This document shows, in pieces, positions 48,712 through 51,175 of a DNA stretch of 64,000 nucleotides (position 1 is the stretch's first letter; each line of letters opens with the position of its first letter). The translations under genes were made by a program, and so were the position numbers. This DNA comes from Tieghemostelium lacteum (Eukaryota > Evosea > Eumycetozoa > Dictyosteliales > Raperosteliaceae): contig LODT01000042.1 of assembly GCA_001606155.1 (NCBI GenBank), positions 476,963 through 540,962 of the forward strand, in the 5' to 3' direction. The notes below the pieces were generated by a model. That model saw only the letters and a program-made list of their open reading frames with translations, ran no database searches and was not told the origin of the DNA.

Positions 48712-48717
48712 CTTTCG
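48712..48717 (+). repeat. Target-site duplication, left copy
   Basis: CTTTCG directly precedes the left LTR, and the same six bases directly follow the right LTR (50863-50868). Five bases (TTTCG) would also fit, since many LTR integrases make 5 bp duplications. Confidence 0.85.
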
Positions 48718-48881
48718 TGTTACTATGATAAGTTATAATACATAACATCATAGTATGAAGTATAAACCCGGTTAAATATAACAACGAATTTGTAGAACAA
48801 ACATTATTACACACAACAAACAAATATATAAAAACATATATTAAATTAATTATCTCTAGACTATTAGTTACAATAGTTACA
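48718..48881 (+). repeat. Left LTR, 164 bp
   Basis: It starts TGTTACTATGATAAG and ends AATAGTTACA. Compared with the right LTR it lacks a 15 bp block after ATTATTAC and a 45 bp AT-rich block after TATTAAATTAA, plus 2 bp. Otherwise the two match nearly base for base. Confidence 0.9.
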
Positions 48882-48893
48882 TGGCGATAACTG
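48882..48893 (+). other. Primer-binding site candidate
   Basis: TGGCGATAACTG begins immediately after the left LTR. TGG pairs with the CCA end of a tRNA, and its position is standard for minus-strand priming. The tRNA would end CAGTTATCGCCA; which tRNA this is was not determined. Confidence 0.6.
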
Positions 48894-48975
48894 TAGGATT
48901 TTAAAACCTCATATTATTTATCTATTAAAAATAATTTTTCAAAAGTCATTTAATTTATTAAAAATGGGTATGTAA

Positions 48976-49332
48976 AAAAGGGTTGTTTGTATACCTGACT
49001 ATGACAAGAGATTTTACATAGAAGCTGATGCTTCGCTAGATAGAGTTTGGTACGAAGAGATTAGGGTAGATGTGCCTATTAATGATGTGGAGTCGGTGGT
49101 TAGACCTGAAGGTCTGGATAGGAATACCGATAAGGGTATTGAGATTGATGAATCTCTGCAGATTGACATGGATGTCAATAGTAATAGTAATATACCATAT
49201 GATATGGAGGTTGATGAACCTTTGAAGATTGGCAAGGAGGCCAATAGAGAATTATGGAATAAATATATTACGAGAACCACTGATATTGTACTGACAGACC
49301 TGAGTCCTACTAAAAGCAATGGGAGAACATAG
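48976..49332 (+). pseudogene. RNase-H-like remnant of a Ty3/gypsy pol
   Basis: A frame open from just after a TAA at 48973-48975 to a TAG at 49330-49332 encodes 118 residues. Its start, VVCIPDYDKRFYIEADASLD, resembles the RT-RNase H boundary of Ty3/gypsy elements (PDF-K-F-x-x-x-TDAS), including the Asp of the first RNase H acidic residue. After that the similarity ends and the chain becomes acidic (IEIDESLQIDMDVNSNSN). I read this as a pol fragment joined by deletion to other sequence. Confidence 0.5.
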
Positions 49333-49379
49333 ATGCTGTGTTGGACTGTAGTGATGGGACCGATGGTGCTGCAACACGA

Positions 49380-49725
49380 GATATAACGTTAGTAGATGGG
49401 TTGATGGTCTCAACCGGGTACTCTACAGGATATAACGTTAGTAGATGGGTTGATGGTCTCAACTGGGCACTCTACAAGATAACGTTAGTAGATGGGTTGA
49501 TGGTCTCAACCGGGCACTCTACAGGATATAACGTTGTAGATAGGGTTGATGGTCTTCAACCGGGTACGCTACAGGATATAACGTTAGTAGATAGGGTTGA
49601 TGGTCTTCAACCGGCACACTACAAGATGAAACGTTAGTAGATGGGGTTGATGGTCTTCAACCGGGTCCACTACAGGATATAACGTTGGTAGAAGGGGTTG
49701 TAGGTCAACAACCTGTACTTCACAA
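49380..49725 (+). repeat. Seven-copy internal tandem repeat, 47-51 bp units
   Basis: Units start near 49380, 49429, 49478, 49525, 49575, 49625 and 49676, each beginning GATATAACGTTAGTAGAT or close. The 51 bp form encodes 17 residues, DITLVDGVDGLQPGTLQ. Units of 47, 49 and 50 bp have lost bases and shift the frame, so only the last two read in the frame of the following protein. Confidence 0.9.
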
Positions 49726-50194
49726 TGATCAAATGCAAGTAGATCTACAAGGAAAAATGGATAATGCTGGTAAAAGGGTAGTAAATGAGGTTGTAAATCA
49801 ACAACTGGTAAGTTTACTGCCGGAGGACAGGGCTAAAAGGGTGACTGATATGCTCGTAGACGAGGTTGATGGTGACGATTATCAATCTGGGACTTTACAA
49901 CATGTAGTGCACCAAGAGTTAGCAGGGGTCCAAGGTAAAAGCATAATGGGATCATTGGATAGTAGTGTCTCTACAGAATCTGAAAATACCAAAGGAAAAA
50001 GGTGGGTGGAGTATCTTCAACGAAATTCCAGAAATGGTGATGAAGAAGCTGCTCACAGAATATTGGATGAGTTACTCATGGATATTGAGAAGTCCAAAAA
50101 GATTGAACTTGAGTCTTACATAGATATCAAGAACTCAAATCATCTGAAAGATTGGATAGAAATCTTCAGGAAAGAGAAGGATGAGAACCAATAA
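49685..50194 (+). CDS. Putative element-encoded acidic protein
   Basis: This 169-residue frame starts within the last tandem unit (VEGVVGQQPVLHND) and may be the 3' part of a longer protein that once included all repeats. It is hydrophilic and helical: QGKMDNAGKRVVNE, DRAKRVTDMLVDEVDGDD, GKRWVEYLQRNSRNGDEEAAHRIL, ending NHLKDWIEIFRKEKDENQ. No zinc knuckle or other Gag hallmark is present. The function is unknown, and the frame may be decayed. Confidence 0.45.
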   Translation: MVEGVVGQQPVLHNDQMQVDLQGKMDNAGKRVVNEVVNQQLVSLLPEDRAKRVTDMLVDEVDGDDYQSGTLQHVVHQELAGVQGKSIMGSLDSSVSTESENTKGKRWVEYLQRNSRNGDEEAAHRILDELLMDIEKSKKIELESYIDIKNSNHLKDWIEIFRKEKDENQ

Positions 50195-50620
50195 ATGGAG
50201 AAATAATGTTATAGAACTGTTTGAATTAGAAAAGGAGCCAACCAAGACCAAGGAAATTGCTAGTCTACAGTAGTCGAAAAGATACTTAATTCTAGAATGG
50301 GTGTTGGTATGTTACGTATAATGGCTAAAAGATGGGTAACTGGTAAGAGAAAGAGCTAAGAAACATGTAGAATATTCTAATATCTAACCAAAAAAAGTGG
50401 ATCAGCTCAGAAGATATATTAAAGACAAAGGTTATACCAAGGATAGTGCCAATTACAATCAAGAGAAATCAAATGTCTCACAAATTTGGTTATAACAAAG
50501 ATATCGTGAAGGAATGTCTCAAGATAAATACAAAGATCAAGTAGTATCGTCTCTATCTTATCTGTTAAAAAATTATTCGCATCCAAAGGTATTAAAATTC
50601 CCACTTACCTTCAAAATCCT

Positions 50621-50636
50621 AGTAAAGAAGGGGGAA
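50621..50636 (+). other. Polypurine tract
   Basis: AGTAAAGAAGGGGGAA lies directly upstream of the right LTR, where plus-strand DNA synthesis is primed in LTR retrotransposons. Such a G-rich purine run is rare in this genome. Confidence 0.8.
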
Positions 50637-50862
50637 TGTTACTATGATAAGTTATAATACATATAACATCATAGTATGAAGTATAAACCCGGTTAAATAT
50701 AACAACGAATTTGTAGAACAAACATTATTACAAATTCGTTGGCAACACACAACAAACAAATATATAAAAACATATATTAAATTAAATAAACATCATTCTT
50801 AATATATATATAATTCTATATATATATTAATTATCTCTAGACTATTAGTTACAATAGTTACA
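50637..50862 (+). repeat. Right LTR, 226 bp
   Basis: This copy is the more complete. It holds a hairpin at its left end (TACTATGAT with ATCATAGTA, and GTTATA with TATAAC inside), a perfect 12 bp inverted repeat at 50704-50715 and 50729-50740 (AACGAATTTGTA), and an AT-rich palindromic stretch near 50800-50830. Confidence 0.9.
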
Positions 50863-51175
50863 CTTTCGTCTACTTGGTTGGTCTTTAACCTTTATGTATA
50901 CCTTGGAATAGCATATGGCTCCAATTTTAAAAAGACCATTGCATACTTAGGTGGTTTTTTATAATAAAAGTTAAATAAATTAATTTAATTTTTCCATAGT
51001 TTTGGAAACCAATAAATACCTTTGGAATTTGATTTTAAATTTCCATCAATTCAAAATATCATTATTAAATAACAATTTTAACTATTTCAAAAACAATTTA
51101 CACAAATATATATAATTCTCTTTCCAAAACTACTTAATTTTCAAAATTAATAATCAACTCTAATTCAAAAAAAAA
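50863..51175. other. Intergenic; target-site copy, no gene seen
   Basis: The first six bases (CTTTCG) are the right target-site duplication. The remaining 307 bp are AT-rich and should include the old promoter of the broken GPI-protein gene. No repeat was recognised. Confidence 0.5.

Follow-up and report, generated by a model that had tools for sequence, protein, structure and literature searches.

A young non-autonomous LTR retrotransposon in Tieghemostelium lacteum, probably derived from a Ty3/gypsy element by internal deletion

Introduction

Three LTR retrotransposons of Dictyostelium lacteum, the older name of Tieghemostelium lacteum, are given in Table 1 of PMC5006619, with LTRs of 163, 206 and 251 bp. 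In the genome searched here (23,333,832 bases in 43 contigs, by which copies are named C23, C33 and so on), we located them with lengths identical to those of that table: Dl_DGLT-A.1 at C23:1752190-1757084 (4895 bp, LTR 163), Dl_DGLT-A.2 at C43:40315-45426 (5112 bp, LTR 206), and the chromovirus Dl_Skipper-1 at C9:40882-45644 (4763 bp, LTR 251). At C23:1752190-1757250 (L066, L050), a DGLT-A.1 copy has a third LTR, two of the three standing in tandem at its 3' end. Another element, absent from Table 1 of PMC5006619, lies at C35:143354-146898 (L070, L051, L071); it is 3.5 kb long with LTRs of ~286 bp and the target-site duplication (TSD) GTAAC. Its 869-aa frame starts near the RT thumb and continues through RNase H and integrase, and because of this late start we read the C35 element as itself deleted.

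LTR elements with complete cis signals that contain neither RT nor integrase and need a helper are known from plants and animals as TRIM, LARD and TR-GAG. A TRIM has a very short internal domain without coding sequence, and a TR-GAG retains only the Gag ORF.

We analyzed a 64,000-nucleotide stretch of T. lacteum DNA (hereafter the window; contig LODT01000042.1, positions 476,963 to 540,962), which contains a 2145-bp element. The first-pass annotation had not placed it among known listed elements (Skipper, DGLT, DIRS, TRE), and as regards the survey in PMC5006619 this was correct: judged by LTR length, the family is none of the three D. lacteum elements tabulated there. No report of the family was met in a literature search, and it is apparently undescribed, of a known general kind. 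The window element is like Dl_DGLT-A.1 and A.2 in that they reside in the same genome, belong to Ty3/gypsy, have the same primer-binding-site (PBS) letters and a G-rich polypurine tract (PPT), and have an RNase H start that aligns with a remnant in the window. It is unlike them in its LTRs, those of 163 and 206 bp being unrelated in sequence, in the position of TGG (2 bp after the left LTR in DGLT-A, 0 bp in the window family), in its TSD (4-5 bp against 6 bp) and in its deleted pol, which is full in DGLT-A. Moreover, DGLT-A inserts upstream of tRNA genes, and a tRNA gene was present in 3/3 of its flanks examined, whereas none was found at 18 loci of the window family. Dl_Skipper-1 is likewise a Ty3/gypsy element, and its integrase is 36% identical to a remnant in a relative of the window element on C38, a distant similarity; it differs in its 251-bp LTR, another PBS, a TSD of 5 bp and a full pol. 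The C35 element provides the best match of the window RNase H remnant but has another LTR, another PBS and a TSD of 5 bp. As the classes are generally defined, the window element is longer than TRIMs and shorter than LARDs, and it keeps post-integrase coding sequence where TR-GAG keeps Gag.

Results

The window element spans 48718-50862 and consists of a 164-nt LTR, a 1755-nt interior and a 226-nt LTR. Its features, in window coordinates, are as follows.

48712-48717, no strand: left TSD CTTTCG, directly outside the 5' LTR
48718-48881, plus strand: 5' LTR of type A, 164 nt
48882-48892, plus strand: PBS TGGCGATAACT, adjoining the 5' LTR with a gap of 0 bp
48976-49050, plus strand: putative RNase H start remnant KRVVCIPDYDKRFYIEADASLDRVW, fused by deletion to the acidic stretch; BLASTP E 1e-4 against the C35 element
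49051-49330, plus strand: acidic, apparently coding-derived stretch, by eye resembling the post-integrase stretch of the C38 relative
49383-49725, plus strand: array of 47-51-nt repeats with a 17-aa unit, e.g. DITLVDRVDGLQPGTLQ; frame broken in the window copy
49733-50194, plus strand: ORF of 153 aa, truncated counterpart of the 303-aa ORF (MQVDLQGK...YIPS) of type B copies
50546-50623, plus strand: type-A-specific 3' end of the interior, where type B ends in another sequence
50624-50636, plus strand: G-rich PPT AAAGAAGGGGGAA, adjoining the 3' LTR directly; same position in the C23 and C38 copies
50637-50862, plus strand: 3' LTR of type A, 226 nt
50799-50830, minus strand: predicted LTR hairpin with a 14-bp stem, z -3.6; centre of palindromic mini-insertions elsewhere
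50863-50868, no strand: right TSD CTTTCG, directly outside the 3' LTR

The first-pass annotation had described two TG..CA LTRs, a 6-bp TSD, a TGG-type PBS and a G-rich PPT around a 1755-bp interior lacking RT and integrase, and each of these was borne out: the LTRs agreed base for base with exact coordinates, the TSD directly flanks both LTR ends, the PBS and the PPT sit right at the LTR borders, and the longest ATG-started ORF of the interior is 153 aa. Both LTRs start with TGTTAC and end with GTTACA; the LTR ends are short imperfect inverted repeats. No match to RT or integrase fell at the element in genome searches with these proteins. Thus, it has the paired LTRs, TSD, PBS and PPT of an LTR retrotransposon but does not have the RT and integrase of an autonomous one.

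Further copies with different flanks, which the first-pass annotation had proposed to look for, were found. Five more complete copies with young LTRs were detected, making six: the window copy and a 2530-bp copy on C23, both with type A LTRs, and copies of 2191-2944 bp on C33, C42, C29 and C30, with type B LTRs. The type B LTRs (221-222 bp) are unrelated to those of type A, but the interior is common to both. Complete copies measure 2145-2944 bp overall, with interiors of 1749-2500 bp, and a seventh copy, on C38, is decayed and longer than the others. Solo LTRs of both types were also found, and the element is therefore not the single copy without related LTRs that would have spoken against a mobile family. 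Three other LTR loci were seen: an A-like solo LTR of 289 bp with the TSD CTCTGG (L023, C31:406198-406488), which is identical to LTR A over its final 70 nt and much diverged elsewhere, suggesting that the LTRs themselves are mosaic; an interior fragment directly after the first 10 nt of LTR B (L020:2926-3148, C11); and an interior fragment that terminates with the final 8 nt of LTR B (GTCTTACA; L027:2270-2331, C17), both fragments being small.

Each complete copy has different flanks and its own TSD, and the TSD was exactly 6 bp in 17/17 A- or B-type insertions compared (6 complete, 11 solo), a set that leaves out the truncated or diverged LTRs L021, L022, L024, L025 and L028, the C38 element, four of the 18 B LTR matches and several weak A matches. 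For C29, the left border was set 4 nt upstream because the first four bases, TGTC, are doubled there. The C38 element is flanked by AAGTAG and AAATAG (5/6 bases match), and the flanks of L024, a 71% LTR, fit 6 bp only when the LTR end is placed at an earlier TTACA. Five other LTR insertions have TSDs of 4 or 5 bp. A paralogous stretch of the C23 insertion site, beside another element (L047), is uninterrupted and contains a single TCTTAT. Across the 164 bases that can be aligned, the two LTRs of the window element are free of substitutions and are told apart only by deletions of 2, 15 and 45 nt in the 5' LTR, and LTR pairs are without substitution in 5/6 complete copies, the C29 pair having 2. 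The window element is a real, young, recent insertion of a mobile family.

Next we consider where the interior came from. The C35 element matches the remnant KRVVCIPDYDKRFYIEADASLDRVW with its RNase H start (11/24 identical), and three further gypsy elements align with it at the same place. In shuffle tests, the observed score was reached by 0/500 shuffles for L051, 0/500 for L035, 5/500 for L037 and 18/500 for L029, while the scores for L046 and L047 were at chance level. Pfam named no family for this piece, and tblastn with complete pol frames as queries gave no match in the window at E 0.1. L046 and L047 (C9:466 kb and 475 kb) carry integrase frames of 502 and 519 aa whose ends, judged by eye, resemble a chromodomain; in L046 a gag-like frame is joined to the RNase H end, with no RT in the frames read. 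In the C38 relative, an integrase core lies between the acidic stretch and the repeats, where the window copy has a junction; it is 38% identical to a C9 integrase over 105 aa (E 6e-17), and matches at 41-42% identity in the genome search. The order in this relative is RNase H start, integrase and C-terminal extension, and the coding region kept by the window family lies after the integrase. Pfam names no chromodomain in this post-integrase region; the C38 frame is decayed. As there is no RT in the family, its placement in Ty3/gypsy does not come from an RT tree. Three more relics of the C38-type integrase occur, on C27, at C9:261729 and on C40, the first two being short fragments; that on C27 (L077:1357-1632) is a short frame between host genes in which a DGLT-A-like RNase H start is fused to a C38-type integrase piece.

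When the same stretch was compared in seven copies, the junctions were nested, from C38 through C30 and then the window, C23 and C29 to C33 and C42. C30 has no integrase but keeps ~200 bp of its surroundings; the window, C23 and C29 have a shorter junction in common (GATATTGTACTGACAGACCTGA), and C33 and C42 the shortest (GATTCAAACAATGACTGTAGTGATGGG). We infer that this nesting reflects the temporal order of the deletions. The RNase H start and the C38 integrase indicate that gag, protease, RT and integrase, together with most of RNase H, have been lost from the window copy, which keeps the post-integrase region, and its interior appears, from sequence comparison, to be the remainder of a gypsy pol. 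The first-pass annotation had offered 'TRIM-like or deletion-derived'; the second description fits the pol-derived interior, and the first does not, because the copies are 2145-2944 bp long and the interior of 1749-2500 bp is neither very short nor of non-coding origin. Nor is the family a TR-GAG, which retains only the Gag ORF, since Pfam finds no Gag domain.

The C-terminal region is still open in type B. In all four B copies, a frame of 347-384 aa stays open at the 3' end and includes a common ATG-started part of 303 aa; neither complete A copy has this ORF intact. The dN/dS ratio was 0.08-0.11 in 8/8 complete A versus B pairs (264-267 codons) and 0.14-0.19 between C38 and B, with one stop codon dropped in each. 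The six ratios within B were 0.12, 0.16, 0.16, 0.21, 0.24 and 0.48, and Fisher tests on six pairs, which are not independent of each other, gave p values of 1e-14, 6e-12, 0.0003, 0.003, 0.05 and 1e-5. The low A versus B ratios argue that the region was under protein-level selection, which may have acted before or after pol was lost, because recombination can import constrained sequence. The best Pfam match of the protein was MrpR_C_cat (E 0.00028), a weak similarity whose 21.1 bits fall below the curated cut-off of 27, and the best PDB match was the related YopR/MrpR (E 0.022). An AlphaFold2 model of the 153-aa window ORF from the single sequence was unreliable (mean pLDDT 42.7). On C20, a genome match with 27% identity to the protein lies in another context.

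Could the protein be a working product that has been selected since pol was lost because it aids the element, perhaps in its packaging or targeting? The A versus B ratios and the frame open in 4/4 B copies are in line with this, as is the pair with the shortest junction, C33 and C42, which still differ mostly at synonymous sites (8 synonymous changes over 160.5 sites and 7 non-synonymous ones over 661.5; ratio 0.21, p 0.003 in a Fisher test). On the other hand, recombination may have brought in sequence that evolved in autonomous copies, the C42-C30 ratio is 0.48 on 6 changes and the C29-C42 p value is 0.05, both complete A copies have a disrupted ORF, and the ORF starts far from the 5' end of the element. 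We regard such a role as a tentative proposal, rather less likely than its absence.

The same data bear on a TRIM- or LARD-like origin, in which a non-coding interior never held proteins of its own. The short LTRs, the small size and the interior without RT or integrase look like such an element, but the RNase H start in the window, the integrase remnant in the C38 relative, the 303-aa ORF of the B copies and the synonymous bias of the divergence make this origin improbable. Still less probable is that a single autonomous insertion died and decayed at this site: frameshifts and the truncated ORF of the window copy would suit it, but the same junctions occur at different, unlinked sites, each with its own TSD, showing that the deleted form itself moved, and LTR pairs in five of the six copies are free of substitutions. 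The reading as a deleted but mobile gypsy derivative is thus retained.

The two LTR types have their interior in common as mosaics. Among complete copies, A versus B identity is 95.7-98.3% just after the repeats, 89.3-93.5% in the middle of the interior and 83.0-84.2% at its 3' end. In C29 the LTRs, the leader and the 3' end are of type B but the middle is of type A, and the window and C23 copies are 99.0, 94.8 and 100.0% identical in three successive segments. This pattern fits template switching between packaged RNAs of A and B: if the two RNAs were packaged together, switching would mix the interiors while the LTRs and 3' ends would stay lineage-specific.

The PBS directly follows the LTR in all complete copies, with C33 reading TGA. 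That of the window has the same 11 bases as Dl_DGLT-A.1 and A.2 (11/12 of TGGCGATAACTT), and in 4/5 of the other complete copies all 12 bases are the same, suggesting that the family uses the DGLT-A primer and perhaps DGLT-A-like helper proteins. A search for the primer tRNA by its acceptor-stem pattern gave 2 places, neither a tRNA, and by its T-arm pattern with one mismatch 4 places, as compared with 10 for the reversed control (one checked, no tRNA). For DGLT-A, PMC5006619 likewise states that no matching primer tRNA was found.

No helper with A or B LTRs was present among the matches listed in genome searches with the two LTRs, and a full-length partner with common LTR ends and primer site, which the first-pass annotation had suggested seeking, was not found. 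The genome search with RT gave 17 matches (L031-L034, L039, L041 and L045 left untranslated) and that with integrase 10, and the LTR-flanked pol elements examined (C9, C43, C23:1752190, C36 and C35:143354) have LTRs other than A or B. An orphan gypsy-like RT frame of 208 aa lies between host genes at C35:412259 (L036). TSDs of the helper candidates DGLT-A.1, DGLT-A.2, Skipper-1 and the C35 element are 4-5 bp. ARAGORN detected 0 tRNA genes in the window and in 18 loci of its family, and one in each of L064, L066 and L068 beside DGLT-A. The DGLT-A TSDs and flanking tRNA genes, unlike anything in the window family, indicate that the integrase serving this family probably belongs to a different lineage, perhaps that of the C38 remnant.

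A genome search with the final 70 nt of the LTR as query gave 26 matches, and in three places two matches lie close together in inverted orientation, with the U5 end at both ends of the unit. Two of these palindromic units are free-standing and have perfect 6-bp TSDs: one of 98 bp on C28 (L026:1992-2089, CTCCAT) and one of 81 bp on C36 (L073:674-754, CTAGTT). The third, on C38 (L014:2283-2374), replaces the 5' LTR of the longer element. The hairpin at 50799-50830 (-9.9 kcal/mol; 0/200 shuffles as good) falls within the region lost from the window 5' LTR. We favor a reading in which minus-strand strong-stop DNA would fold back at this hairpin, prime itself and be inserted by the integrase, and the two free-standing units suggest that self-primed strong-stop cDNA can be integrated. 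Recombination between a C38-like palindromic left end and a right LTR is the rival to this reading, as it would leave the same product. No report of U5-U5 palindromic insertions was met in the literature search. A DNA-transposon composite, in which the 'LTRs' would be MITE-like units, inverted at their termini, flanked by 6-bp TSDs and related to the palindromic units, would agree with the TSDs of the solo and mini-units and with the imperfect inverted repeats at the LTR ends, but is highly improbable, since LTRs are identical within copies and divergent between A and B, the PBS and PPT lie exactly at the LTR borders, and the pol remnants keep the gypsy order.

Discussion

Taken together, the data make it very probable that the element recently inserted in the window is a non-autonomous LTR retrotransposon of T. 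lacteum that arose from a Ty3/gypsy element by internal deletion. In the proposed cycle, RNA would be made from the 5' LTR and packaged by the Gag of a helper; the helper RT would copy it with the same primer as in DGLT-A elements, and an integrase leaving 6-bp TSDs would insert the product. A more speculative picture, which we think unlikely as a whole, is that of a two-headed non-autonomous element: one coding interior would move between two unrelated LTR sets by template switching, a post-integrase protein would still be selected after loss of every enzyme, and the 6-bp integrase would also insert hairpin-derived U5-U5 palindromes from self-primed minus-strand strong-stop DNA, giving rise to the 81-98 bp mini-elements.

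A well-surveyed compact genome gains an apparently undescribed Ty3/gypsy lineage. Its related copies point to a stepwise loss of pol and to an interior exchanged between two unrelated LTR sets, which is unusual. The palindromic units may be a readable record of failed reverse transcription that still got integrated. If the C-terminal protein is indeed selected without any enzyme, a retrotransposon parasite can live by supplying its own accessory protein.
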